NCBI GenBank assembly: GCA_017436865.1
Contig: JAFSCH010000105.1
Coordinates: 1 to 41,665 of the forward strand
Direction of reading: 5' to 3'
Source of the DNA: Lachnospiraceae bacterium
GTDB taxonomy: Bacteria; Bacillota; Clostridia; Lachnospirales; Lachnospiraceae
DNA: 41,665 nt
Shown: positions 1 to 26,084 of the stretch, one piece after another
How positions within the stretch are numbered: position 1 is the stretch's first letter
How the letters are laid out: each line of letters begins with the position of its first letter
Notes under the pieces: generated by a model
The model's input: the letters and a program-made list of their open reading frames with translations, nothing else
Told to the model about the DNA's origin: nothing
The model's database searches: none
Program-made: the position numbers and the translations under genes

Positions 1-150
1 AAAGCAGTGCGAGTTTGCGTAGGACAAGACAAATCAAAGCTGCCGAACGCTCCATTTAGAAAATACCAAATAAGCGTCCCGATATGAGTAGCATGGTAGC
101 CGGCTGGTGCGGCACATACTACTCCACTAAACCTGAATTTATCCAATCTT
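1..150 (-). other. Unexplained open frame at left edge
   Basis: A minus-strand frame stays open from a TTG at the very end of the PIG-L gene to the window edge (at least 48 codons). The conceptual peptide has a cysteine-containing stretch and an aromatic stretch (LIWYFLNGAF). The stretch looks more G+C rich than its neighbours. I do not recognise it. There is no ATG in this frame and no clear ribosome binding site, so it may be a structured RNA, a repeat or a mobile-element end rather than a gene. It is cut by the window edge. Confidence 0.2.
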
Positions 151-1810: not shown

Positions 1811-2287
1811 CTAGCTTCTGATTCTTTTCATAAATTCCAGATATTGTTCCTTTTCATCCATATCATAACCACACTTTTCAAATGCTTTGGCAGATGCAAT
1901 ATTGGCATGCTTTACCTGTCCCTTGCAATAGATAACATCCATTCGCAGTTCTCTAAGCTTCTCCTCCGCCATCAAAATCATGCGTGTTCCATAGCCCTGA
2001 CCACGTTTCTCTGGATCAATACTATAATCTATCAATGCTTCTCCGTCCTCAATAGACAAACGTATCTGTCCAATATTTTGAACTTCTCCCGCATTATTCG
2101 TACTACATAAGATATATTTCAAAACGTCTCGGTCTGCCAACATTTTCACAAACCATGCACGATGTGTCTCGTATGGTATCTGTTCCGTATGAAATGCATT
2201 CTGTCTTGTCACAGGATCATTTGCCCACTGAAATAATAAATCAATATCTTTTCCTGTTACCTCTCGTAATGTTAAACCCATTACCAT
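1811..2287 (-). CDS. pseH: Pseudaminic acid N-acetyltransferase PseH
   Basis: A 158-residue GNAT acetyltransferase. The acetyl-CoA pyrophosphate-binding motif RGQGYG lies near residues 95-100, preceded by the beta-strand DYSIDP. PseH acetylates the 4-amino group of UDP-4-amino-4,6-dideoxy-beta-L-AltNAc, the product of PseC. The opening (LREVTGKDIDLLFQWANDP.TR) is typical of PseH/RimJ-like proteins, and the surrounding pseB, pseC, pseF and pseI genes support the assignment. Two start codons are possible. The second ATG (position 2281, peptide MGLTLREV) has a GAGG at better spacing than the first. It lies just upstream of the formyltransferase gene in the same operon. Confidence 0.85.
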   Translation of the reverse strand: MVMGLTLREVTGKDIDLLFQWANDPVTRQNAFHTEQIPYETHRAWFVKMLADRDVLKYILCSTNNAGEVQNIGQIRLSIEDGEALIDYSIDPEKRGQGYGTRMILMAEEKLRELRMDVIYCKGQVKHANIASAKAFEKCGYDMDEKEQYLEFMKRIRS

Positions 2288-2328
2288 TTACCTCATAAAA
2301 ATGGAATTCTATACTTACTTGTTTCAAA

Positions 2329-3384
2329 CTAATTTAAATCTTCTTCTCTTAAAGGTGTTCCTGCTTTGAGAGCCCTATTAGCAAACTTTCCCAACACTTC
2401 CTTATAGAATTTTGGCTTCATACCATATGCCGGACGAATACTTCTGATGTTTTCTGGTGTCAAGGCCTCGCCCTTTGCAATATCCTTCACCACAAATAAA
2501 GAACGACGGAAGCAAGCATTTGATTCCTCTTGTTTTGACACACCATAAGTCACAACACCTCTAGCCTTTTCTACTTCTCGTACCTTTTCAATCATTTCCT
2601 TAAATTCCTGTGGTTCCATAGAGAACGTAGAATCCGGATTCTTTATTTCTCTGCTGACACAAAAATGCTTCTCAATAATCGTTGCTCCCATTGCCACTGC
2701 CGTTGCTGCACTAAAATAGCCTAGAGAATGATCCGATAATCCTACCGGAATACCAAATCGTTGCTTCATATCTACGATTGTTCCTAGATTCATCTCTTCT
2801 ACCTTGGCCGGATAAGCACTAGAACACTTCATAATCGCAAGCTGATGATTGCCCTGACTGTAAATCGCCTCAATTGCCTCTTGAATCTCCTCTAACGTTC
2901 CCATACCAGTTGACATAATAATCGGTTTTCCTTTTGATGCAATATACTCAAGCAAAGGAATATCAACCAATTCAAAAGATGCAATTTTATAAAAAGGCAT
3001 CTCCAGCTCTTCCAGGAAATCAACAGAAGTTTTATCAAATGGAGTAGATAAGAAATCAATTCCTACCTTTCTTGCTTCATCACGAAGCTCCTTCTGCCAC
3101 TCCCAAGGTGTATAGGCTTTCTGATACAGGCTATACAAATTTTCTCCTTCCCAGGTTCCCTTGGAAATATTGAAATAATCATTATGGCAGTCAATCGTCA
3201 TCGTGTCCGGTGTATATGTCTGAATCTTGATACAATCAGCTCCGATTTCCTTGGCTGCATGAATAATTTCCTTAGCATGCTCAATACTTCCTGCATGGTT
3301 TCCTGACATCTCTGCAATAATATACGCCGGATAACCATCTCCAATTCGTCTGCCATTTACTTCTATATACTTTGTATTCTCCAT
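2329..3384 (-). CDS. pseI: Pseudaminic acid synthase PseI
   Basis: A 351-residue cytoplasmic enzyme that condenses 2,4-diacetamido-2,4,6-trideoxy-L-altrose with phosphoenolpyruvate to give pseudaminic acid. The NeuB-type TIM barrel spans about residues 15-280 and includes AEMSGNHAGS near the start. A C-terminal antifreeze-like SAF domain spans about 290-350 and ends GTPLREEDL. The SGNH version of the N-terminal motif and the RSIRPAYGMKPK linker are characteristic of PseI rather than sialic acid synthase (NeuB usually has EIGVNHNG) or legionaminic acid synthase. The length matches the family. It is in one transcription unit with pseF upstream and pseH downstream. Confidence 0.92.
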   Translation of the reverse strand: MENTKYIEVNGRRIGDGYPAYIIAEMSGNHAGSIEHAKEIIHAAKEIGADCIKIQTYTPDTMTIDCHNDYFNISKGTWEGENLYSLYQKAYTPWEWQKELRDEARKVGIDFLSTPFDKTSVDFLEELEMPFYKIASFELVDIPLLEYIASKGKPIIMSTGMGTLEEIQEAIEAIYSQGNHQLAIMKCSSAYPAKVEEMNLGTIVDMKQRFGIPVGLSDHSLGYFSAATAVAMGATIIEKHFCVSREIKNPDSTFSMEPQEFKEMIEKVREVEKARGVVTYGVSKQEESNACFRRSLFVVKDIAKGEALTPENIRSIRPAYGMKPKFYKEVLGKFANRALKAGTPLREEDLN

Positions 3385-3427
3385 TGTCGTAACGATACCT
3401 TTCTTTTATTCTACATCGCTGTGTTTT

Positions 3428-4117
3428 CTATAAACCACGCAGAATTTTATATTTCATCTCTGCTATTTTCCAATCTTCTATTGTATCAATATCCTGTACA
3501 CTGCTTTCATCCTGAATAAACGGCACAACATGTTTCATCCAAATTGCCTTCTGTTCCATAAAGCTCTTGGTATTTAGACAATAAAACTGTCCACAATCAT
3601 GATAAAAAGGCTCAAGATCCTGTGAACGAAGCTTCATATTCTCAGGCCACTTTGGTTCTAAGCGATTATCATGAATCACAACACAGCGCTGTGGCGGAAA
3701 TGAAAACTTCACAACAGGAATGCAGGCATCTGCTTTCTCTTGTTCCAATAACATCATGGCTGTTTTTATGGCATTTGCTGTCACAAACGGTGCTGTTGGA
3801 TAGATGCAACACATCTGTTCAAAGCGCTTTCCTATTCTGTCATAAGACTCCAATACCTCTGCCAGTACTTCTGCTGTTGTTGCATAATCATTAGAAGTAT
3901 CCTCACTCCGAAAGAATGGAACCTGTGCTCCCGCTTTTCTGGCAACCTCTGCAATCTCTTCATCATCGGTAGATACCATGACCTCGTGAAACATATCCGA
4001 CTGTAAAGCCGCTTCAATACTATATTCAATAATTGGTTTTCCAAGAAATGGCTTAATATTTTTCCTTGGAATTCTCTTACTTCCGCCTCTTGCGGTAATA
4101 ATTGCTACACTTTTCAT
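3428..4117 (-). CDS. pseF: CMP-pseudaminic acid cytidylyltransferase PseF
   Basis: A 229-residue nucleotidyltransferase that activates pseudaminic acid with CTP, giving the donor for glycosyltransfer. The N-terminal signature ARGGSKRIPRKNIKPFLGKP (residues 9-28) is that of CMP-nonulosonate synthetases, and the length is that of PseF/NeuA cores. A GATAGGGG sequence lies just upstream of the ATG. It is the first gene after a hairpin-rich gap that includes a terminator behind pseC (4347-4376), so it either depends on readthrough or has its own weak promoter. I could not identify a convincing one. Confidence 0.92.
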   Translation of the reverse strand: MKSVAIITARGGSKRIPRKNIKPFLGKPIIEYSIEAALQSDMFHEVMVSTDDEEIAEVARKAGAQVPFFRSEDTSNDYATTAEVLAEVLESYDRIGKRFEQMCCIYPTAPFVTANAIKTAMMLLEQEKADACIPVVKFSFPPQRCVVIHDNRLEPKWPENMKLRSQDLEPFYHDCGQFYCLNTKSFMEQKAIWMKHVVPFIQDESSVQDIDTIEDWKIAEMKYKILRGL

Positions 4118-4151
4118 ATATTTGCCCCTATCCTGCTAATCTAAAACTCTC

Positions 4152-4344
4152 TTATTTCTACCAGAAATAATACATGGGAACAAAGTGGACAAGTCCACAT
4201 CATCTCCCTAAATCCCTCTCTCTAGAGGGACTTGTTCACTTTGTCGCGCGAATCGCATATCACGAAGTGATAATTTCCTTATGCGATTCTGCGCATATTA
4301 TTTTTGAAGTAATAGGACAGTTCAAAGAACTTTCCTATTACTTC
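4152..4344. repeat. Array of four nested hairpins between pseC and pseF
   Basis: Four successive inverted repeats fill this gap. (1) TTATTTCT/AGAAATAA, 4152-4170. (2) 16-bp arms 4181-4196 and 4228-4243 with one G-T pair, with TCCCTCT/AGAGGGA inside. (3) 10-bp arms GAATCGCATA/TATGCGATTC at 4250-4259 and 4280-4289, extended by GCGC on both sides (one bulged base), with a competing TATCAC-GAA-GTGATA inside. (4) 12-bp arms 4306-4317 and 4333-4344, with AGTTC-AAA-GAACT inside. No coding frame explains them. They look like inserted palindromic elements or a structured leader. Confidence 0.8.
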
Positions 4345-4376
4345 AAAAAGCCCGTGGGTATTTCCCTCCGGGCTTT
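4345..4376 (-). terminator. Rho-independent terminator after pseC
   Basis: AAAGCCCG (4347-4354) pairs with CGGGCTTT (4369-4376). A further GGG/CCC pair closes the inner loop. On the minus strand the stem is followed by a run of five T. It lies about 8 bases beyond the pseC stop codon and would separate pseB-pseC from pseF onward, unless termination is partial. Confidence 0.8.
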
Positions 4377-4383
4377 GTCTCTT

Positions 4384-5577
4384 CTATTTGCGATAGTATG
4401 CTACTATCTTCTTTACCGCACTAATTACATCTTCCACATCCTGATCTGTCATACCATAGTACAACGGAAGACTTAGCATCTCATCGTACAGTTTCTCTGC
4501 GTTTGGACAGATTCCTTTCTTGTAGCCCAGCTTGTCATAATATGGATGGTAATATACAGGAATATAATGCACATTACAACAGATATTTTCTGCTCCTAAC
4601 GCTTCAAAAAATCCTTTTCTGTCAATGGTAAGCATCTCTGGTCTGATTCTAAGAATATAAAGATGTCTTGTTGTATCAGACTCCGCTATCTCCTGTTGTA
4701 CAAAAAGTTCAGAAATTTCAGCAAACGCCTCATTATATCGCTTAACAATCTCTTTTCTTCTTGCGCTGAACATTGGAAGCTTATCCAACTGACTTATAAT
4801 CAATGCACATTGAATATCTGTTAATCGGTAATTATATCCTAAATCAATTTGTTCATAGTACCAAGGTCCATGTGGTTCTCTTTCTAATAGTTCAGGAATT
4901 CTAGTTATACCATGAGCCCGGTACAATACTAGCTTCTGATACAATTCTTCACTATTAGTAAGAACTGCTCCACCCTCGCCACCTGTTACGGTCTTAACAG
5001 GATGAAAACTAAAAGTTGTCATATCTGCGATGCTACCAACCATTTTATCTTTATATTTCGTACCAATAGAATGTGCTCCATCTTCAATCAAGGCAATGCC
5101 CTTTTCACGACACATAGCAAGGAGTTCATCAAGCTCTACAGCCTGACCAGTAAAATCTACTGCTACGACTGCCTTTGTCTTTTCTGTAATCTTCTCCTGC
5201 ACACTCTTTGGGTCAATGTTATAAGTATTCGGATTAATATCTGCAAACACTGGCTTTGCGCCACAATATAACCCACAATTTGCAGAGGCTGCAAAGGTAA
5301 TTGGAGTAGTAATCAGCTCATCTCCTTCTGACACGCCTGCTGCCATTGCCGCAATATGTAACGCAGCCGTTCCATTGCTGCATACTACGGCATACTTGGC
5401 TCCTGTCAGCTCACAAAGCTTCTTTTCCAGTTCTGTAATCTTAGGACCACAAGTCAGACAATCACTGGTAAGCACCTCCGTAACTGCCTTAACATCTGCT
5501 TCGTCAATATACTGATGTCCGTAAAATATTTTCGTATCCCTAACCGGAGTTCCTCCGGCAATTGCTGGTTTATTCAT
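4384..5577 (-). CDS. pseC: UDP-4-amino-4,6-dideoxy-AltNAc aminotransferase PseC
   Basis: A 397-residue PLP-dependent aminotransferase of the DegT/DnrJ/EryC1 family. It converts the 4-keto product of PseB to the 4-amino sugar, with glutamate as amino donor. Visible signatures are SNGTAALH (67-74), EDGAHS (165-170, with the aspartate that contacts the PLP ring nitrogen) and the Schiff-base lysine in SFHPVKTVTGGEGG (K195). The start MNKPAIAGGTPVR is typical of PseC. It follows pseB after a gap with three hairpins and is followed by a terminator. Confidence 0.93.
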   Translation of the reverse strand: MNKPAIAGGTPVRDTKIFYGHQYIDEADVKAVTEVLTSDCLTCGPKITELEKKLCELTGAKYAVVCSNGTAALHIAAMAAGVSEGDELITTPITFAASANCGLYCGAKPVFADINPNTYNIDPKSVQEKITEKTKAVVAVDFTGQAVELDELLAMCREKGIALIEDGAHSIGTKYKDKMVGSIADMTTFSFHPVKTVTGGEGGAVLTNSEELYQKLVLYRAHGITRIPELLEREPHGPWYYEQIDLGYNYRLTDIQCALIISQLDKLPMFSARRKEIVKRYNEAFAEISELFVQQEIAESDTTRHLYILRIRPEMLTIDRKGFFEALGAENICCNVHYIPVYYHPYYDKLGYKKGICPNAEKLYDEMLSLPLYYGMTDQDVEDVISAVKKIVAYYRK

Positions 5578-5603
5578 ATCAAAACTTTACCTTTCCACGA
5601 CCT

Positions 5604-5629
5604 GTAAGTTTGCAGCTCTGCAAACTTAC
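5604..5629. repeat. Perfect hairpin 1 of pseB-pseC gap
   Basis: Perfect 11-bp arms (GTAAGTTTGCA/TGCAAACTTAC) with a GCTC loop lie about 27 bases from the pseC start codon, where the structure could affect ribosome loading on the minus-strand transcript. It is the first of three back-to-back hairpins. Confidence 0.8.
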
Positions 5630-5633
5630 CAAT

Positions 5634-5662
5634 CGCAAATTCTTCCGTTTATGGAATTTGCG
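5634..5662. repeat. Perfect hairpin 2 of pseB-pseC gap
   Basis: 9-bp arms (CGCAAATTC/GAATTTGCG) close an 11-base loop, TTCCGTTTATG. The loop matches that of the next hairpin at 9 of 11 positions although the arms differ, so the two hairpins look like related copies. Confidence 0.8.
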
Positions 5663-5664
5663 CT

Positions 5665-5699
5665 GATTGCAAAATCTTCCGCCTATGGATTTTGCAATC
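5665..5699. repeat. Perfect hairpin 3 of pseB-pseC gap
   Basis: 12-bp arms (GATTGCAAAATC/GATTTTGCAATC) close the loop TTCCGCCTATG. It starts one base after the pseB stop codon on the minus strand. Without a downstream T run it is not a standard terminator, but it could protect the 3' end of the pseB message. Confidence 0.8.
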
Positions 5700-6695
5700 T
5701 TATTTCTCCAACTCAACATCCTTTAACAGTTCTCTAATCTGCTCTACCGTAAGCCACTCTGTATTGTTTCCTGATGAATAATAGAATTCATCATCAACTT
5801 TCTTACCACTTGGATTTGGACGCTTTGACTCCTGCCAAAACATCTGTGGATAAATAATATAATGCTTATCATATTCAAAAGTAGTCATGGAATCTTCTAC
5901 TGTAACCATTACCTCATGAAGCTTTTCGCCCGGGCGAATACCGATTTCTTTTGTCTTCATACCAGGTGCCATTGCTTCTGCAAGGTCTGTAATCTTGAAA
6001 GATGGAATCTTACTGATGAAAGTTTCTCCACCCTTTGCTTCCTCTAATGCCTTAATTACAAGCTTTACACCTTCCTCTAAGCTAATCCAGAAACGTGTCA
6101 TTCTATAATCGGTAATAGGAAGCTCTGTTGCACCTTCCTTAATTAACTTGTTGAATAACGGAATAATAGAACCACGGCTTCCTGCCACATTACCATATCT
6201 TACGATAGAGAAACTTAACTCCTTATCTCCACAATATGCATTCGCTGCGATAAAGAGCTTATCTGAAACAAGCTTTGTTCCACCGTAAAGGTTTACCGGA
6301 TTTACTGCCTTATCGGTAGATAATGCAACTACCTTCTTAACACCTGTATTCAAGGATGCATCAATTACATTCTGAGCACCTACAACATTGGTCTTAATTG
6401 CTTCATTTGGATTATATTCACAAGCAGGAACCTGCTTCATAGCTGCTGCATGAATGACATAATCAACACCTTCAAAAGCTCTCTTCATACGCTCATAATC
6501 TCTTACATCACCAATAAAGAAACGAAGCTTATCCTTATATTCTTCAAACTCACTTGCCATCATCCACTGCTTAAACTCATCTCTTGAGTAAATGATAATC
6601 TTCTTAGGGTTATAATTCTTCAGAACATATTTTGTAAAACATTTTCCAAAAGAACCAGTTCCGCCTGTAATCAATATTGTTTTATTATTTAACAT
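5700..6695 (-). CDS. pseB: UDP-GlcNAc 4,6-dehydratase (inverting) PseB
   Basis: A 331-residue extended short-chain dehydrogenase that starts pseudaminic acid synthesis by converting UDP-GlcNAc to UDP-2-acetamido-2,6-dideoxy-beta-L-arabino-hexos-4-ulose. The NAD(P)-binding motif TGGTGSFGK lies at 10-18. The active-site region STDKAVNPVNLYGGTK contributes D128, K129 and the Y137-x3-K141 pair. The soluble 331-residue form is that of PseB/FlaA1, not the long membrane-bound CapD/WbpM type. It is first in its operon, with a strong ribosome binding site (GGAGG) about 8 bases from the ATG and a sigma-A promoter at 6749-6777. Confidence 0.94.
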   Translation of the reverse strand: MLNNKTILITGGTGSFGKCFTKYVLKNYNPKKIIIYSRDEFKQWMMASEFEEYKDKLRFFIGDVRDYERMKRAFEGVDYVIHAAAMKQVPACEYNPNEAIKTNVVGAQNVIDASLNTGVKKVVALSTDKAVNPVNLYGGTKLVSDKLFIAANAYCGDKELSFSIVRYGNVAGSRGSIIPLFNKLIKEGATELPITDYRMTRFWISLEEGVKLVIKALEEAKGGETFISKIPSFKITDLAEAMAPGMKTKEIGIRPGEKLHEVMVTVEDSMTTFEYDKHYIIYPQMFWQESKRPNPSGKKVDDEFYYSSGNNTEWLTVEQIRELLKDVELEK

Positions 6696-17125: not shown

Positions 17126-18277
17126 TTATTTATATAGATATCGTTCTGCTTCAAACAGCCAGCTTCTATACGGAAGTAAACCAACTCCCGGTTTATCTGC
17201 TCCAGCAAGAAATACAATAAATAAAATAACGCACGCTATACAAACAATACACTTAACTCTTTTATGAATCTTTTCTTCCTCGATTCCCGAAAGAATCATT
17301 GGAATTAGAAACAATTGTGTTACCGAAAAATAATAAGCAATTCGTGTTACTACTGGTAAAAAGGAGAAGAACACACACACTACTACCGAAAGTAAATTTA
17401 GTTGCGCATAGAATAGCAGTTCTCTGTCCTCCTGTTCTTTTCGATATCGCATGTGATACCAAAGATACAGCCCCATTACAAGTACACCTCTTAGAATACT
17501 AATCGGACTGGTTCCTCCCTCTAAATACACCGTATTCTCATAAGAAGGATAAAACAATAAAGCAATCTTTAGTATTATTCCCTTAGCTAGAAAACAACCC
17601 GCACTAAACGCAATTCCTGTAATAATCATCCATCTCTTCCAGACAAAAGATGCCATCCAATACACTGGAATCGTAAGTAATACCGACTTATGGAATAACG
17701 ATGCAAGTAAAACACAAAATACAAACTTAATCAAATCCCTGTTTAAAACATAACGCATCGCATACAAAACAATTCCCAACGCAAAATAATAACGCATGGT
17801 ATTATATGTTTGAAAATACAGTCCTAACATCATAAACAGAAAATAAGTCATTGAAAAATCTGTACTCTGCTCATAAAATGCCTTTATAAAAATATATAAT
17901 GTCGCAAAAGCAAATACGGCAAACACAAGCTCATAGTATTCTCCACCTGCCAAAGTATAAATAATCCTTACCAACCAGTTAAATCCAGCCTCTGTTACCA
18001 CATAACCGCCTACATATACCTCATGAGCTGTCTGAGTGTATTGTCTATAGTCATTACCTATACCAAAACGTAACGCAGAACAAAGAAAAAGAATCATAAA
18101 AATTCCTACCAAATATATGCGATTTAGACTTTCTCTTCTTGTTTGTAAGCCTGTTCCTTTATATGCACGAATTCTACCTGTTCTTTGTTCACATATTTGT
18201 ACCTTACTAGCCATAAATATTGTGACTGCTGCAATTAATATATAAAAGAAAATCGAAATTACCATATCCGTCGACAT
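17126..18277 (-). CDS. EpsG-like polysaccharide polymerase
   Basis: A 383-residue integral membrane protein with around ten hydrophobic segments. The EpsG family motif FGIGNDYRQYT lies near residues 71-81, after the first segments. EpsG proteins play the Wzy role, joining lipid-linked repeat units on the outer face of the membrane. It sits between two glycosyltransferase genes. With the Wzz-like gene at 19145-20221 and the sugar transferase at 20221-21618 it completes a Wzy-type export set, except for a normal Wzx. Confidence 0.85.
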   Translation of the reverse strand: MSTDMVISIFFYILIAAVTIFMASKVQICEQRTGRIRAYKGTGLQTRRESLNRIYLVGIFMILFLCSALRFGIGNDYRQYTQTAHEVYVGGYVVTEAGFNWLVRIIYTLAGGEYYELVFAVFAFATLYIFIKAFYEQSTDFSMTYFLFMMLGLYFQTYNTMRYYFALGIVLYAMRYVLNRDLIKFVFCVLLASLFHKSVLLTIPVYWMASFVWKRWMIITGIAFSAGCFLAKGIILKIALLFYPSYENTVYLEGGTSPISILRGVLVMGLYLWYHMRYRKEQEDRELLFYAQLNLLSVVVCVFFSFLPVVTRIAYYFSVTQLFLIPMILSGIEEEKIHKRVKCIVCIACVILFIVFLAGADKPGVGLLPYRSWLFEAERYLYK

Positions 18278-19144: not shown

Positions 19145-20221
19145 TTATTGTATTCCGTAAAGCTTCATCCACTTTCGATTCACATCTACCAAAATTGCAC
19201 CTATTATCTTGCAATCTTGATTTTCTAACTGGTTTATCTTCTCTATCACAGCTTCTCTACAAGGCTTTCCAAAAGGAATTGCAAGAATCACGCCATCTGT
19301 TCGACGAATAGCATCATAATCCTCTTTTGTCAGAATCTCCTTCGCCTGAGCCTTCAACTCAACCTTTACAGAATTCTTATCATATATAGACATTACTATT
19401 TCTCTACATTTTTGTGCATAGTCTCCAGCTACAACATCTGCTATTATCATTTGCTTACCACACATCTTTTCGATATGATACTGCAATGCAAGCCGTAATG
19501 CAATTTCTTGTGTTCCTTGCGCTTCATTCCCACTTTTATACAGCAAACCAAATACTGGTATATTCAAGCTCTGCAAAATGGAACGCTTTGTATAATATCT
19601 GCTTCCCATGCAAAAGCTCGCTGCAATAGCAAACATTCCAAGTAACACACCACATACTGCTCCTAGGAATGCTGCACGCCATGTAAATAATGGTTCCTCC
19701 ACCTGTACTACACCATTATTTTCTATTTGCACAATCGAATCAATCTCAACGATCTTCTCCACACGACTCGCCAAGGTTTCAAGCGACTGCTTGGTTATTT
19801 CGCTGACAGAAGCAACCAATTCCGCATCCAGTCCCTTAACAGTAATCGTCAGATACCTTACATCTGATAAAATATCAGCCGTTATCATATCTTTCACATA
19901 CGCCCTACTGTAATCCGAACCTAAGATTTCCATCGTATTACCTAAAATCCAATCAGAAGCCATGACATCATTCCATGTAAAATCATTATAATAGTCTTTC
20001 CCGTCTATTCGACCCTCTGCAAACTCAATATAATATTCCGTTTCTGCCTGATACATTGTCCCTTCTGAAGTCATAACCGTTATAAGCAAATAGAGACCGC
20101 TGCCCAAAACGGCACCGGCCACTCCCATCAGAAGCAAATATGGCAATTTATGCAGGAAACAAACTAGCAATGCTTTGCTATCAATGCCCTCCTGCCAATA
20201 CTTTGATTCGCATGCCTGCAT
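19145..20221 (-). CDS. Wzz-like chain-length protein with degenerate kinase-like tail
   Basis: A 358-residue protein. An N-terminal membrane segment (about 28-50) and a second one (about 182-207) enclose an extracytoplasmic Wzz domain with a coiled middle part. The cytoplasmic tail (about 225-358) has the look of a bacterial tyrosine kinase domain (DAIRRTDGVILAIPFGKP, then KIIGAILVDVN), but no Walker A P-loop and no tyrosine cluster at the C-terminus. It therefore probably controls chain length but cannot phosphorylate. The start overlaps the stop of the upstream sugar transferase (shared base 20221). The fusion and degeneration are judged by eye. Confidence 0.75.
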   Translation of the reverse strand: MQACESKYWQEGIDSKALLVCFLHKLPYLLLMGVAGAVLGSGLYLLITVMTSEGTMYQAETEYYIEFAEGRIDGKDYYNDFTWNDVMASDWILGNTMEILGSDYSRAYVKDMITADILSDVRYLTITVKGLDAELVASVSEITKQSLETLASRVEKIVEIDSIVQIENNGVVQVEEPLFTWRAAFLGAVCGVLLGMFAIAASFCMGSRYYTKRSILQSLNIPVFGLLYKSGNEAQGTQEIALRLALQYHIEKMCGKQMIIADVVAGDYAQKCREIVMSIYDKNSVKVELKAQAKEILTKEDYDAIRRTDGVILAIPFGKPCREAVIEKINQLENQDCKIIGAILVDVNRKWMKLYGIQ

Positions 20222-21618
20222 TACTTCTCTTCCTCCTCTTTTCTGATTTCCTTCATTGCTGTAATCTGGTTTTCTTCCACACCTTCTGTACTATCCGGCT
20301 GGAACAAAATCTTTAGGGTAAGAAGCATCAGCTTTAAATCAAGCCATATACTATAATTCTCTATATAAAATAAATCTAATTTCAACTTGTCATACGGAGT
20401 TGTATTGTATTTTCCATACACCTGCGCATACCCCGCAAGTCCTGCCTTTACCTTTGTTCTAAAGGTGAATTCCGGCATTTCCTCCTGATATTGCTTAATA
20501 ATCTCCGGCCGTTCCGGTCTTGGACCAATAAATGACATCTCACCTTTTAGAATATTGAATAACTGAGGAAGCTCGTCTATTCTGACCTTACGAATAAACT
20601 TACCAATTGGTGTAATTCGATTATCATTCTTAGAAGCCAATCTGGCAACTCCATCTTTTTCTGCATCCGTACGCATACTGCGGAATTTTAAAATCTTAAA
20701 TTCCTGCATATCTCTCGTACAGCGTACCTGCTTATAAAGCACCGGACCGCCATCATAGCACTTTACCAAAATTGCTGTAATCAACATAAAAGGCGAGCTC
20801 AGGATAATCAGTACCAAAGAACAAATAATGTCCACTGTACGTTTGATAAATCTCTGCTCTACCGTCATAGAATACTCTCTTGTAAAAAGAATCGGTGTAT
20901 CAAATAAATGAAGCTGTTCTGAGCCACGAATCAAAATATCCGGAATCTTTGGCATCATATACACTCGAATATCTTTACTATAGCAAAACTTTAACAGTTT
21001 ACTTCTAAGTGCTGTATTAATATCCCACAGGATAACGCCATCATAACGGCACATAATTTCTTTTTCTAATTCCTGCTGCCCTTCATCCTCATGCACACAT
21101 TTTACAATGTTATACTTGTCTTTTCTACTCTCAAACTTCTGCAAAATACTTTCAATAGGTCTGTCACCACTAATCAATAACAAATTCCTTGGTGGAAACA
21201 GTTGTGCATAAAATCGTTGACAGATAAACGTCCACAGAGCTGCAAAAAGCAACTGCGCCAACGTCATACCAAGTATTGGATAAACCGTAACCAACTTTAA
21301 AGAGAGCAAACAAATCTGAAAATAAGAAATTGCATTTACAAACAAAAGTGATAAAACCTGTGAAAAATATACATCCATAGGTTTTAAATATCCTATTTTC
21401 AAACCACCATACGTCGCAGAAAAGAAAAGAAGCAATAACAAATATACTGCTGCCAACAACCAAAAACCTTTTCCTGTGAAATTTCTCCACATATATTTCT
21501 GCATAATATCGTTGTATATAACACGCCATACATATACATATGCAGCGGTATGTACCAGCAATCCAATTAAAGAAAGCTGCAATACGATAATTCTTTTTAC
21601 AGATTCTAAACGTCTCAC
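20221..21618 (-). CDS. Polyprenyl-phosphate sugar-1-phosphate transferase (initiating)
   Basis: A 465-residue membrane enzyme that starts repeat-unit synthesis by placing a sugar-1-phosphate on undecaprenyl phosphate. It has four or five N-terminal membrane helices (to about residue 140), a cytoplasmic CoA-binding-like middle region, a helix near 268-288, and the C-terminal catalytic domain (about 262-450). That domain has KRTVDIICSLV, FKILKFRSMRTDAE, RVRIDELPQLFNIL in the form RKVRIDELPQ, GPRPERPE, and KAGLAGYAQVYGKYNT. The length fits the WbaP/CpsE class. The transferred sugar is unknown. Confidence 0.93.
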   Translation of the reverse strand: MRRLESVKRIIVLQLSLIGLLVHTAAYVYVWRVIYNDIMQKYMWRNFTGKGFWLLAAVYLLLLLFFSATYGGLKIGYLKPMDVYFSQVLSLLFVNAISYFQICLLSLKLVTVYPILGMTLAQLLFAALWTFICQRFYAQLFPPRNLLLISGDRPIESILQKFESRKDKYNIVKCVHEDEGQQELEKEIMCRYDGVILWDINTALRSKLLKFCYSKDIRVYMMPKIPDILIRGSEQLHLFDTPILFTREYSMTVEQRFIKRTVDIICSLVLIILSSPFMLITAILVKCYDGGPVLYKQVRCTRDMQEFKILKFRSMRTDAEKDGVARLASKNDNRITPIGKFIRKVRIDELPQLFNILKGEMSFIGPRPERPEIIKQYQEEMPEFTFRTKVKAGLAGYAQVYGKYNTTPYDKLKLDLFYIENYSIWLDLKLMLLTLKILFQPDSTEGVEENQITAMKEIRKEEEEK

Positions 21619-21645: not shown

Positions 21646-22419
21646 TTATACTCTGCGAAGTACTGCACGCAATGCCCAGAAACACATACAATATGCACTA
21701 TAAAATACATTTAACTTTTCCTGCTTGCGATATAATCTCCAAATTCTTTTTATCGCTTCCAGTTTATTGGAAGATAAAGTATTAGCACTTCTGCGATATT
21801 TTACAAGGTTTTTGTCAAGCCCATACGCCTTTCCATAAACCTTTAATAAATGCCACCAGGTTGCTGTATCCTCACTTGCAATCTTCGGCATAAAGATATC
21901 TTCATCTTTTATTTTTGAACGGTCAATCATAACCGTAGACGTAAAAATAGTTGTATTTTTTAAAGCCTCAGAATAAACAATCTCTTCCGGAACCCTAACA
22001 ATCTTTCCAAGCCCCTTACCATATTCATCTGCAAATTCATATCCAGTAAATACAAAACCTGCCTGTTTCTCTTGCATAAAATGTATTTCTTTCTCAAGCT
22101 TTTCAGGCTCCCATAAATCATCTGAATCCAAAAAACACAAATATCTACCTTTTGCATAAGAAACACCATAATTCCTTGCAGCCGCAGCTCCCTGATTCGT
22201 TTCCTGATGTATCAAGCAGATCCTTGCGTCCTTTGCTGCTTTTTCCTCAATAAGAGCACAACTTCTATCCTTTGAGCAATCATCTACCAAAAGCAGCTCC
22301 CAATCTTCATAAGTCTGCTTCTGTACACACTCTATGGTTTCTTCAATAAAGCGCTCTACCTGATATACCGGAACGACAATACTAACCAAACTATCTTTAT
22401 CGCCAAATTCTCTCATCAA
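21646..22419 (-). CDS. Glycosyltransferase family 2
   Basis: A 257-residue GT-A enzyme. SIVVPVYQVE opens the domain, LLVDDCSKDRS lies near 38-48, GAAAARNYG near 77-85, and the D-x-D-containing FLDSDDLW near 96-103. There are no membrane segments, apart from a hydrophobic patch near the C-terminus. Its start directly follows the stop of the GtrB-like gene, so the two are likely coupled. Confidence 0.9.
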   Translation of the reverse strand: MMREFGDKDSLVSIVVPVYQVERFIEETIECVQKQTYEDWELLLVDDCSKDRSCALIEEKAAKDARICLIHQETNQGAAAARNYGVSYAKGRYLCFLDSDDLWEPEKLEKEIHFMQEKQAGFVFTGYEFADEYGKGLGKIVRVPEEIVYSEALKNTTIFTSTVMIDRSKIKDEDIFMPKIASEDTATWWHLLKVYGKAYGLDKNLVKYRRSANTLSSNKLEAIKRIWRLYRKQEKLNVFYSAYCMCFWALRAVLRRV

Positions 22420-23361
22420 TTAAAATTCTTCCTTTACCAAATATTTTGGTCTGTCCTTCACTTCCATATACATTTTACTCATGTACTGTCCCATAATACC
22501 AAGACAAAGCAATTGAACTCCTCCAATAAAGGAAATAATGCAAATCGTTGATGGCCATCCCGCAACAGGATCTCCATATATCATGGCTCTGATAAAAATA
22601 AAAAACATAAATACAAACGCCAGAGCACAGAACAAAATACCAAATAAAGACGCCATAGAAAGCGGTACGGTCGAAAACGCCATAATTCCATCTAAAGAAT
22701 ATAAAAACAGCTTCCAGAAAGACCACTTTGTCTCTCCTGCCACACGTTGTACATTCTCATATTCAATCCACTTTGTTTGATATCCTACCCAGCCAAAAAT
22801 CCCCTTTGAAAAACGATTGTATTCTCTCATGGATAAGATTGCATCCGTTACCTGTCTTGTCATCAAACGATAATCTCTTGCACCATCTACAATTTCAGTC
22901 TTAGAAATCTTACGCATCAACCCATAAAATCTTCTGGCAAAAAAGGAACGAATCGGCGGTTCTCCCTTTCTATCTACTCTTCTGGTTGCCACTGAATCAT
23001 ATCCTTGTTCAATATAACCATACATTTCCGGTAAAATTGCAGGAGGATCTTGTAAATCCGCATCCATTAATACGGTAAAATCACCCTTTGCTTTTTCTAA
23101 ACCAGCAATAATAGCAGCCTCTTTTCCAAAATTTCTAGAGAATGAAACCAAATGTACTCTTTCATCCTGTTCACGCAGCTTTTTCACCGCTTCTACGGTT
23201 CGGTCTTTAGAACCATCATCTACAAACACAAATTCCAGCTCTATATCTTTTTCATGAAAAAATGCTTCCTGCTTTTTAGTCTCTGCATAAAACAAAGGCA
23301 CACTTTCTTCTTCATTATAGCAGGGCACAATAATACTTAATGTCTTTCCATATACTTTCAA
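22420..23361 (-). CDS. Membrane GT2, dolichol-phosphate-sugar synthase/GtrB type
   Basis: A 313-residue protein with an N-terminal GT2 domain: LSIIVPCYNEE, then VFVDDGSKDRT, then SFSRNFGKEAAIIAGLEKAKGD, then the metal-binding MDADLQDPP. Two C-terminal membrane helices span about 225-255 and 270-292. This class loads a sugar onto polyprenyl phosphate, giving a lipid donor for modification of glycan on the outer face. Its ATG overlaps the stop of the Spo0A-like gene by 4 bases (ATGA), so the two are translationally coupled. Confidence 0.9.
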   Translation of the reverse strand: MKVYGKTLSIIVPCYNEEESVPLFYAETKKQEAFFHEKDIELEFVFVDDGSKDRTVEAVKKLREQDERVHLVSFSRNFGKEAAIIAGLEKAKGDFTVLMDADLQDPPAILPEMYGYIEQGYDSVATRRVDRKGEPPIRSFFARRFYGLMRKISKTEIVDGARDYRLMTRQVTDAILSMREYNRFSKGIFGWVGYQTKWIEYENVQRVAGETKWSFWKLFLYSLDGIMAFSTVPLSMASLFGILFCALAFVFMFFIFIRAMIYGDPVAGWPSTICIISFIGGVQLLCLGIMGQYMSKMYMEVKDRPKYLVKEEF

Positions 23362-23726
23362 GCTATCTGCTCCTTACTTACCTTATCTCGCAACACCCTA
23401 ATTACTTCTGTATTCGTAGGTCTTTCCGAGCTTCTCTCGTAATACTCACAAAAAACCTCTCTTAAAGCCTCATGATTTCCTTTTATCCATGCTGTTTCAA
23501 TACTATTTCTAATTGCACGTTCTACCTGCTTATCATTTGCCTTAAAACGCTTTGCAATTTCCGGATACAAAAGCTTTGTTACACTTGTAACCACTTCTTC
23601 ATCAAAACATGCTATCAATACAGCTTCTCTTAAATAACGATATCCTATCTGGCTCGCCTGAAATCCACATCGAAGTAACAGGTATGTAGTATATTTCAAA
23701 ATTTCTACTCGGTCGTTTGTATTCAT
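23358..23726 (-). CDS. Stand-alone Spo0A C-terminal DNA-binding domain protein
   Basis: A 122-residue protein that is almost entirely a Spo0A effector domain. Matching blocks are GYRYLREAV (28-36), LLYPEIAKRF (52-61), the recognition helix region VERAIRNSIETAWIKGN (68-84) and RPTNTEVI (102-109). All have direct counterparts in the C-terminal domain of Bacillus Spo0A. The receiver domain is absent, so phosphorylation cannot control it. I chose the ATG at 23726 behind GGGGGAG. A GTG at 23744 would add six residues and overlap fcl. It lies between fcl and a GtrB-like gene (4-base overlap with the latter), so it is made together with the glycan enzymes and is likely a local regulator. Targets are unknown. 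Confidence 0.9.
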   Translation of the reverse strand: MNTNDRVEILKYTTYLLLRCGFQASQIGYRYLREAVLIACFDEEVVTSVTKLLYPEIAKRFKANDKQVERAIRNSIETAWIKGNHEALREVFCEYYERSSERPTNTEVIRVLRDKVSKEQIA

Positions 23727-23743: not shown

Positions 23744-24685
23744 CTACATTCTAGCATCCTGCACATTGTCACGAAACCAGTCATAAGCTAATTGTACGCC
23801 TTCTTCCAAGTCCACCTTATGCTCCCAACCAAGTCCATGAAGCTTTGTTACATCGGTCAGTTTTCTCGGGGTTCCATCCGGCATATCTGTATTCCAAATA
23901 ATATCTCCTTCAAAACCAACTACCTTCTGTACTGTTTCAGCCAGCTCTTTAATAGAAACTTCCTTACCTGTACCAATATTTACATGCTGCTCACCGCTAT
24001 AATTTTCTAATAAGAATACACAAGCATCTGCCATATCATCTACATACAAAAATTCACGAAGCGGTGTGCCAGTGCCCCAAAGTTCTACACTTGGTGCTCC
24101 ATTTACTTTTGCCTCATGGAACTTACGAATCATAGCCGGCATAACATGTGAACCAGACAAATCATAGTTATCATGTGGACCATAAAGATTAGTAGGCATA
24201 CAACTGATAAAATCATCGCCATACTGCTTCTTGAAAAACTTACACATCTCAAGTCCTGCAATCTTAGCAATTGCATAAGCCTCATTCGTAACCTCTAATG
24301 CTCCAGTCAATAAAGCATCTTCCGGAATTGGCTGCGGAGCCATCTTAGGGTAAATACAAGTACTTCCCAAGAAAAGTAATTTCTTTACTTTATAGTCATG
24401 ACATGCCTTAATCACATTACACTGAATCTGCATATTTTCATACGCAAATTCCGCTGGTGCCGTGTTATTCGCATTAATTCCACCAACCTTAGCAGCAGCA
24501 AGCACAACTACATCTGGCTTCTCTTCCTCAAAAAAGGTACGAACTGCAGCCTGATTTGTTAAATCCAGCTCTTTATGTGTTCTTCCTATTACATTTGTAT
24601 ATCCTTTTGCCTGAAGATTTCTTACGATTGCAGAACCAACCAACCCTCTGTGACCTGCTACATATATCTTATCTGTCTTATTCAT
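23744..24685 (-). CDS. fcl: GDP-L-fucose synthase
   Basis: A 313-residue extended SDR enzyme that epimerises and reduces GDP-4-keto-6-deoxy-D-mannose to GDP-L-fucose. The NADP-binding [12 protein letters not shown] lies at 12-23, the active-site [16 protein letters not shown] near 107-122, and the Y-x3-K catalytic pair in [10 protein letters not shown] near 134-143. [23 protein letters not shown] is the typical substrate region. It follows gmd directly, giving a complete two-step route from GDP-mannose. Confidence 0.95.
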
Positions 24686-24697
24686 ATTTAAACCTTT

Positions 24698-25768
24698 CTA
24701 CGCGTTCTGTGCCTTATATTCCTCACAAGACATACCAGCAATTGTCTTTAAATCAGAATCCATCATCATAGATACAAGTCCTTTAAAGTCAACCTTTCTC
24801 TTCCAACCAAGCTCTTTTTCCGCTTTTGTAGAATCACCCCAAAGGAATTCAACCTCGGCAGGACGGTAGAATTCAGGATTTACATCTACCAAAAGCTTAC
24901 CTGTCTTTTCATCATATCCCTTTTCATTGACACCTTCGCCTTCCCAGCGAATCTTGATACCAAGCTCTGCAAAAGCTGCCTCTACGAATTCACGCACCGT
25001 ATGTGTTTCATTTGTCGCAAGAACATAATCTCCCGGAACTGCCTGCTGAAGCATTAACCACATTCCTTCAATATAATCTCCTGCAAATCCCCAGTCTCTC
25101 TTTGCATTCATATTTCCAAGTGAAAGCTTGTCCTGCTTACCTGCAATAATATTAGCAATAGCAAGTGTAATCTTTCTAGTTACAAAGTTCTCACCTCTTC
25201 TTGGTGATTCATGATTGAAAAGAATACCATTACATGCAAACATATTATAAGACTCTCTGTAATTAACCGTAATCCAATAAGAATATAACTTTGCTACACC
25301 ATATGGACTCTTTGGATAAAATGGTGTCTTTTCACTCTGTGGAGCTGTTTCTGGAAGTCCTCCAAACAACTCAGAAGTAGATGCCTGATAAAAACGACAA
25401 TTTCCACCATTTACGCGAATTGCCTCTAACAACTTTAATGTGCTTACACCTGTTGCATCGGCTGTATATTCAGGTACTTCAAAAGAAACACCAACATGAG
25501 ACTGTGCTGCAAGATTATAAACCTCTGTCGGTCTAATCTCACCAATCAGTCTCATAAGGTTAGAAGAATCTGTTGTATCTGCAAAATGCAGGAAAAATTT
25601 AACTTTGTTATATTCTGAATTTAATAAATGGTCAATTCTTGCAGTATTAGAAATACTGTGTCTTCTTACCAAGCCATGTACCTCGTAACCCTTCTCTAAT
25701 AAAAACTCTGCAAGGTAAGAGCCATCTTGACCTGTAATACCTGTAATCAGTGCAATATTTTTATTCAT
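24698..25768 (-). CDS. gmd: GDP-mannose 4,6-dehydratase
   Basis: A 356-residue extended SDR enzyme that makes GDP-4-keto-6-deoxy-D-mannose. [18 protein letters not shown] (residues 9-26) binds the cofactor, [10 protein letters not shown] lies near 127-136, the catalytic [12 protein letters not shown] near 152-163, and [16 protein letters not shown] near 183-198. It is the first gene of the polysaccharide operon, with AGAGG 7 bases before the ATG and a good promoter about 95 bases upstream. Fucose or a related 6-deoxyhexose is therefore expected in the glycan. Confidence 0.96.
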
Positions 25769-25848
25769 AATTATACCTCTCTTAATTTATATACTTTTGT
25801 AACTATTCACAATGCGTATGCCTGCTAAACAATTACTAATATTTTTCC

Positions 25849-25894
25849 ATGTTGCCTTCTATAGTATACACGCCTAAAATGTGCATGGCAACAT
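25849..25894. promoter_or_regulatory. Operator-like palindrome around gmd promoter
   Basis: ATGTTGCC (25849-25856) and GGCAACAT (25887-25894) are perfect inverted half-sites. The right arm covers the -35 box, and the left arm lies near the transcription start. The -10 box lies between them. The layout is what one expects of a repressor site, but the protein is unknown. Confidence 0.45.
25863..25891 (-). promoter_or_regulatory. Sigma-A promoter of the polysaccharide operon
   Basis: On the minus strand, TTGCCA (25886-25891) and TATACT (25863-25868) are spaced by 17 bases. A TG pair sits directly before the -10 box. The predicted start is near 25856, about 90 bases upstream of the gmd ATG. Confidence 0.75.
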
Positions 25895-25902
25895 AATTTT
25901 AA

Positions 25903-25928
25903 GTTACTGCTCTCTCCGTTCCAGTAAC
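25903..25928. promoter_or_regulatory. Second inverted repeat upstream of gmd promoter
   Basis: Perfect 7-bp arms GTTACTG (25903-25909) and CAGTAAC (25922-25928) lie just upstream of the -35 box of the operon promoter, where an activator could bind. The rest of the 316-base gap 25769-26084 holds the two divergent promoters and nothing else that I recognise. Confidence 0.4.
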
Positions 25929-25984
25929 ATGCAAAAATCTATCCTATATTTGCTTCAGAAATAGTTTTTATCATCATCCCACTA

Positions 25985-26013
25985 TTGTCAATTAACATAA
26001 TTTTGATTATAAT
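25985..26013 (+). promoter_or_regulatory. Sigma-A promoter of the yuiD-like gene
   Basis: TTGTCA (25985-25990) and a perfect TATAAT (26008-26013) are spaced by 17 bases. The predicted start is near 26020, about 65 bases before the ATG at 26085. Confidence 0.8.
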
Positions 26014-26084
26014 ACATTATGTACAAATGCAATCCGCTATATTCTGATTGCTTATATACAAAATAACTAAAGCAGGTATTACTT

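Follow-up and report, generated by a model that had tools for sequence, protein, structure and literature searches.

A Spo0A effector domain without a receiver encoded in a glycan operon of Lachnospiraceae with a truncated main Spo0A

Endospore formation is considered to be gated by the phosphorylation of Spo0A, and the isolated C-terminal domain of the protein is one of the constitutively active variants known in Bacillus subtilis. Envelope and capsule loci have operon-specific regulators of another kind, with UpxY, LoaP and RfaH being NusG-type antitermination factors. A second constitutively active B. subtilis Spo0A, Sad67, turns on early sporulation genes, yet in rich medium it does not suffice for efficient sporulation, which it supports when a second signal is supplied (PMC4689505, in the portion of the text available). 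The Spo0A_C domain (PF08769) has further been described, in the available part of another study, as enriched in mobile elements of gut Firmicutes (PMC6907783). Among the matches listed from the open-licence literature, as far as their text was accessible, we found no description of a receiver-less Spo0A in Lachnospiraceae or of a Spo0A_C gene in glycan loci.

The gene reported here combines features of these systems. It encodes the same domain and fold as the Bacillus Spo0A effector domain (PDB: 1fc3, 1lq1; PF08769), but differs from Bacillus Spo0A in being without a receiver, in the replacement of S210, R211 and H218 (positions here and below presumably being those of B. subtilis Spo0A numbering), and in being a second gene, placed in a glycan operon, beside a main Spo0A. 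Like UpxY, LoaP and RfaH it is a small regulator encoded among polysaccharide genes that are probably under its control, and unlike them its product contains PF08769 only. As in Sad67, Spo0A is freed of phosphorylation control (PMC4689505, available portion); Sad67-type variants are laboratory alleles, whereas the present gene is natural and fixed in a genus, and is accompanied by a natural deletion that leaves about 38 N-terminal receiver residues in the main Spo0A.

The short Spo0A_C gene and its glycan operon

The window, a 41,665-nt stretch of a Lachnospiraceae assembly (GCA_017436865.1, contig JAFSCH010000105.1), carries on its minus strand a 122-codon gene (23358..23726; ATG at 23726, stop at 23358), for which we use the working label spoC; a possible alternative GTG start at 23744 would extend the product to 128 residues. 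The initial annotation had described the product as essentially only the Spo0A effector domain and had proposed a profile search, which bears this out: PF08769 matches residues 15-115 (108.6 bits, cut-off 25; E 1.9e-31), and Pfam yields no further family at an E-value of 0.001, neither the NusG N-terminal domain nor the receiver (PF00072), with just 14 residues preceding the domain and fcl lying upstream. The full-length Spo0A model (NCBIfam TIGR02875) aligns solely over its positions 152-258, scoring 90 bits against a cut-off of 200. The protein possesses the C-terminal DNA-binding domain of Spo0A and lacks the receiver domain of a two-component response regulator. Its PDB matches are 1fc3 (E 5.6e-22) and 1lq1 (E 2.1e-21), whose fold the predicted structure equals, and by sequence and structural model DNA binding by this protein is likely.

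All genes of the surrounding unit lie on the minus strand. The first is gmd, encoding a GDP-mannose 4,6-dehydratase (24698..25768; TIGR01472, 538.4 bits, cut-off 415), followed by a gene for an fcl-like NAD-dependent epimerase (23744..24685; Pfam), which is directly upstream of spoC. The latter overlaps by 4 nt the TTG start (23361, preceded by AAGGAG) of GT2a, a GtrB/PgfS-like GT2 glycosyltransferase (22420..23361), so that the position originally noted for spoC, between fcl and a "GtrB-like" gene with a 4-base overlap, is confirmed; that name is the one given in the initial annotation, and the PgfS model scores GT2a at 328.6 bits, below its cut-off of 500. Further genes encode a second GT2 glycosyltransferase (GT2b, 21646..22419; Pfam), an exopolysaccharide-type polyprenyl glycosylphosphotransferase (Bac_transf, 20221..21618; TIGR03025, 335.3 bits, cut-off 295.55), a Wzz-like membrane protein (19145..20221; named by position and appearance, without a Pfam match) and an EpsG-type polymerase (17126..18277; PF14897, 190.8 bits). 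Elsewhere, the window contains pseudaminic acid genes (1811-6695), with PseB, PseC, PseF and PseI above cut-off and a PseH-like GNAT below it. Rfam gives no match anywhere in the window.

A probable promoter of gmd-fcl-spoC-GT2a, TTGCCA-17-TATACT (25863..25891, minus strand), has 10 of 12 matches. Promoter-like sites as such are not commoner in this region than in shuffles (32 versus 29.0, all shuffles in this work being random first-order chains rather than exact dinucleotide permutations); the specific pattern TTGYCA-16..19-TATACT occurs upstream of gmd in 13 of 32 loci of the genus and in none of the shuffled sequences. When six intergenic stretches from upstream of the operon are aligned, a promoter region proves to be conserved between the window and two close relatives, and a third has its -10 as well.

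In the window's genus, spoC is present in 37 of 38 genomes, the exception (G025) being 84% complete. In all 36 loci fetched in addition to the window it is the neighbour of GT2a on one strand; the longest frames of the two overlap by 83 nt at one extreme and are separated by 116 nt at the other. At 34 of these 36 loci fcl is found no more than 300 nt upstream. Two loci (L072, L073) have no gmd or fcl between spoC and a divergent PAP2-like gene, and most of the fetched loci share the conserved surroundings glmM, ybbR and cdaA. Loss of the receiver through a sequencing error in the upstream DNA, the caveat attached to the initial annotation, is excluded because that DNA encodes fcl and the same short gene recurs in 37 of 38 genomes; the broader proposal of a sequencing or assembly error confined to this assembly, in favour of which nothing was found, is refuted by the same architecture in 36 other genomes of the genus.

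The aligned copies of the spoC product are 45-89% identical to the window protein (20 copies). Across the fetched loci its identity to the window is 48-89%, against 86-95% for GT2a, and pairwise dN/dS is 0.09-0.19 (8 pairs) as opposed to 0.01-0.05 for GT2a. Such faster evolution might be taken to mean that spoC is a decaying, functionless Spo0A duplicate carried along in the operon. However, its dN/dS is clearly below 1, none of the 37 copies in the genus has a stop within the match, and 22 columns are invariant among 21 aligned copies, all of which renders decay very improbable. The gene is clearly under purifying selection, though evolving faster than GT2a.

Glycan-linked relatives and the truncated main Spo0A

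From a collection scan with 431 confirmed loci of short Spo0A_C genes, the best 80 were retained. All 32 taken as belonging to the window's genus (L118-L149) and 43 of the 48 others (L150-L197) have a homologue of GT2a, GT2b, Bac_transf, Wzz or GTx19 nearby; of the remaining five, three (L187-L189) adjoin gmd/fcl, whereas neither kind of neighbour is present at L184 or at L191, the latter being a 3.7-kb contig. In a tree built on 107 aligned columns from 132 effector domains, with bootstrap values yet to settle, the glycan-linked short proteins form one group (92/99, not starred), within which the window's genus is nested (100/100), so that common ancestry of the glycan-linked copies is moderately supported. 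The other short Spo0A_C proteins of the family are scattered in the tree apart from this group, at least three of them (L104, L109, L111) near sugar genes as judged by sequence inspection. Conversely, L084 and L184 (G186) are group members without recognisable adjoining glycan genes; in G186 (L221, L272-L276), which has six short Spo0A_C genes alongside a truncated Spo0A, four of the six (L273-L276, L274 being the L184 copy) lack such neighbours, L273, L275 and L276 standing outside the tree set.

Several other forms of Spo0A_C genes were encountered in the family. A third kind (L092, L096, L100), outside the glycan group, has a short N-terminal piece resembling the start of a receiver. The one-contig genome G146 (L078-L083) has eight short Spo0A_C genes, one match containing a TAG, in addition to a full-length Spo0A. 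As in the mobile-element PF08769 proteins, the short protein of Kineothrix has relatives in phage records, namely 14 of a phage collection, the best at 74% identity; the ten listed (H1-H10; MT838085.1 and others) are from human faeces and unannotated. The spoC gene of the window's genus differs from such mobile versions in belonging to a conserved locus, which in most of the fetched cases adjoins glmM, ybbR and cdaA.

A feature missed by the initial annotation is that the main Spo0A of these organisms has lost most of its receiver, so that the spoC product is not the paralogue of an ordinary, phosphorelay-controlled Spo0A. The main, higher-scoring Spo0A_C protein was detected in 37 of 38 genomes of the genus (all but G024, 85% complete) in frames of merely 174-247 codons, and no full-length Spo0A was found among the 38. 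Over the first ~38 residues (MEQLN..DNE..) six truncated proteins align without gaps to four full-length counterparts from sister genera; they then lack about 95 residues, including the VVLLDIxMP stretch which we take to be the site of the phospho-acceptor, and rejoin in the linker before the effector domain; a second comparison of the truncated proteins took in 22. A full-length control has a Pfam receiver match that is missing from the two truncated proteins searched, and the N-terminal remnant of truncated Spo0A is predicted, with low confidence, as one helix.

Within the family, 82 of 120 sampled genera gave a match. The main Spo0A has a frame of at least 260 codons in 66 of these, 13 of which were read and all 13 have a whole receiver; it is truncated in 10 genera plus the window (nine of the ten were read whole and that of G098 as the piece after a stop), and five genera gave lower-scoring matches only, by hand count. 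Sixteen genomes with named loci, selected for carrying the short gene and including three of the window's genus, all have main Spo0A frames of 180-224. The truncated proteins form one clade in the effector-domain tree (100/96).

A split, stand-alone receiver was considered and rejected for eight truncated genomes, in which the best matches to a Spo0A receiver query scored 55-68 bits, the range of other response regulators; the same query scored 117-123 bits in three full-length controls. No receiver occurs within the 1.5 kb examined beside spoIVB in 18 truncated genomes. Some genomes depart from the common arrangement: the window's own (G000; L001, L002), G014 and G021 each have two high-scoring Spo0A_C genes with frames of truncated size, L001 following an SpmB-like gene (named by sequence inspection) and not spoIVB; the main truncated gene of G098 (L244) has an in-frame TAG and is possibly a broken copy; and G128, of a genus with full-length Spo0A, encodes a second, 161-aa Spo0A (L268:4614-5096) whose effector domain is preceded by no more than a short N-terminal piece, possibly an independent truncation.

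All 10 genera with a truncated Spo0A in the family sample carry a glycan-group short protein, nine of them beside glycan-gene homologues (L084 being the exception), and among the matches listed no fetched and treed short protein of a full-length genus falls in this group, a comparison that leaves out the 161-aa copy of G128 and second copies in frames above 250 codons. Given that the truncated lineage is a single clade, these counts do not represent independent events.

Recognition helix, 0A boxes and the proposed role

The recognition-helix segment of the spoC product, KQVERAIRN (codons at 23505..23531, minus strand), corresponds to SRVERAIRH of Spo0A, whose tallied residues we take to be DNA contacts. 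The view that this helix is well preserved holds for the central VERAIR; its flanks are replaced, S210 by K, R211 by Q and H218 by N. The same pattern, mostly K/Q, Q/K, VERAIR and N, is typical of the 61 rows of the glycan group, in which E213 and R217 are kept throughout, R214 in 58 (it is G in 3 of 37 rows of the window's genus), and N replaces H218 in 55, with S210 retained in one and R211 in three. With an intact core and altered edges, the helix may have shifted in specificity, and the short protein may not read 0A boxes, which could instead be read by the truncated main Spo0A.

Upstream of the window operon (25769-26084) the box TGTCGAA is absent, and across the genus no 0A-box enrichment is seen before gmd, spoC or GT2a, with glmM alone having a small excess (three one-mismatch sites; 0.7 expected, largest shuffle 3). 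The sister short genes of other genera present a different picture. The 0A-box core TGTCGA is the top-scoring of all hexamers in the 250 nt upstream of them, being found at 20 of 50 loci left by an 8-mer redundancy filter (3.65 expected), many of which are Acetatifactor-like with a kinship exceeding what this filter removes; there are 30 sites in all, with 4.0 expected and 12 in the largest of 100 shuffles. Before 16 other gene classes of the same loci it amounts to 0-3 sites each, within the shuffles. The full box TGTCGAA occurs 12 times (1.46 expected; 57 loci), and an 8-mer search, though the hexamer score did show a signal, gave nothing clearly above shuffles in this DNA. When measured from the conserved GVPAH codon, TGTCGA lies within 260 nt at 29 of 57 sister loci and is absent within that distance at 28, Kineothrix included. 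At 13 of the 57 a box precedes a -10-like TATRNTA by at most 4 nt (shuffled 0.02), and at 12 there are two boxes with starts 49-51 nt apart (shuffled 0), the second often beside the Shine-Dalgarno sequence by inspection. This geometry suits repression.

Other candidate sites were noted in the window's genus. The palindrome TTACTGGAACGGAGAGAGCAGTAA (25904-25927) was rejected as an operator, being a dispersed repeat with 22 copies, allowing up to two mismatches, in the window's own genome, 13-15 in three relatives and none in Kineothrix or G089. A dyad, TTGTCA-N3-TGACAA with up to two mismatches, lies no farther than 220 nt from gmd at 17 of the genus's 32 loci (shuffled 0.5, largest 2) and is not found in the window; about 12 of the 17 overlap the -35 by position, half of the dyad being the -35 itself, and it is a candidate operator only.

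On the basis of these observations we favour, with a probability of roughly 0.55, the interpretation that the spoC product is a phosphorylation-independent, autoregulated local regulator of envelope-glycan genes, which split from Spo0A in the lineage with a receiver-less Spo0A. According to this proposal, the effector domain of Spo0A was duplicated in a lineage of Lachnospiraceae whose main Spo0A also lost its phospho-acceptor region, and the copy would have taken on dedicated local control, most likely by repression, of transcription of an envelope or secreted glycan operon and probably, in a self-limiting manner, of its own gene. Loss of the phospho-acceptor together with duplication of the effector would then have replaced the phosphorylation of a single Spo0A, as the point of control, by the abundance of two unregulated effectors with different recognition-helix edges. 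The core idea of the initial annotation, that of a possibly constitutive regulator of glycan output, likely stands: the bare effector domain, purifying selection, the fixed glycan locus and the box cores of sister genes favour it, and the absence of TGTCGAA from 25769-26084 goes against it. The occupant of the boxes in the cell, the operator in the window's genus and the regulatory target itself can at this point be no more than proposed.

The boxes also lend themselves to a different interpretation, in which the main, truncated Spo0A would bind them and control the glycan locus as one of its ordinary targets, the short protein no more than fine-tuning it by negative feedback. The boxes are of the Spo0A type, their enrichment is specific to the DNA upstream of the short gene, and the main protein retains SRVERAIRH in all 56 rows of the tree set (21 full-length, 35 truncated). 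Nevertheless, no boxes precede the operon in the window's own genus, and we consider this interpretation quite unlikely.

Sporulation genes and the initiation of spore formation

Genomes of the lineage with the truncated Spo0A retain several sporulation genes. SpoIVA is found in 34 of 36 genomes of the window's genus, and SpoIVB in all 20 genomes inspected, including two full-length controls. Genes of the sigF type occur in 30 of 30 genomes, two above the curated cut-off; as the model also matches in 10 of 14 control genomes, we rely on the strong matches (~280-317 bits), which are common to truncated and full-length genomes. SpoIIE and SpoIIAA are each detected in 28 of 28 (20 truncated, 8 controls), none above cut-off. 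The SpoIIE match begins at position 410-429 of 764 in the truncated lineage (frames of 395-495 codons; L288-L307, the window's genome being L291) and at 205-314 in the eight full-length controls (472-644 codons).

These genes bear on the alternative that the short protein acts on the sporulation circuit, competing or pairing with the truncated Spo0A at 0A boxes and so setting the threshold for spore entry, its place among glycan genes making its expression report envelope synthesis. Compatible with this are its presence in every truncated genus of the sample, the box cores upstream of the sister gene, the precedent of the constitutively active Sad67 (PMC4689505, available portion) and, at 5 of 19 truncated loci, TGTCGYA 32 nt before TTTGACA upstream of spoIIE. 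However, this spoIIE signal is weak, a permuted control heptamer giving 21 matches in the same DNA against 27 for the box, and TTTGACA is also a -35. Moreover, no box enrichment is seen upstream of spoIIAA, the edges of the recognition helix are unlike those of Spo0A in nearly all rows, and a conserved adjacency to glycosyltransferases would be unneeded for such a role. We regard a function in the sporulation circuit as unlikely. The truncation of the main Spo0A makes a link between the short protein and sporulation more interesting, not more certain.

The published record on spore formation in these bacteria is mixed. In one set all 24 Lachnospirales genomes, Acetatifactor included, were predicted to be non-sporulating (PMC12536801, available part). 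This counts against sporulation free of phosphorylation, although a prediction based on the annotation of sporulation genes might itself go astray where spo0A is truncated. According to the same source, the presence of spo0A serves as a marker when sporulation is predicted. Relatives of Kineothrix alysoides by 16S have been counted within "anaerobic spore-forming" families (PMC9229247), a classification that does not amount to a sporulation test. Some human-gut Lachnospiraceae with a relatively complete sporulation gene set were said to have "had lost spo0A" (PMC11170972, available part); because that study searched for gene names in a Prokka annotation, the truncated spo0A may bear on its claim.

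The truncated main Spo0A suggests that the start of spore formation has been rewired in relatives that carry the short gene. We tentatively propose, as a possibility short of even odds, that in a gut lineage of Lachnospiraceae that comprises Kineothrix, Acetatifactor and their relatives sporulation begins without phosphorylation of Spo0A. The acceptor region would have been lost once, at the base of the lineage, and at about that time a bare copy of the effector domain would have become fixed in the envelope-glycan locus, behind boxes of the 0A type; whether a spore forms would then be decided by how much of each of two unphosphorylatable effectors is present, with surface-sugar synthesis linked to one of them. 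With SpoIVA, SpoIVB, SpoIIE, SpoIIAA and sigF-type genes kept, an acceptor-less Spo0A and a second effector in a glycan locus, this lineage would offer a natural test of whether the phosphorylation of Spo0A can be dispensed with and of the way in which entry into sporulation is coupled to surface glycans.
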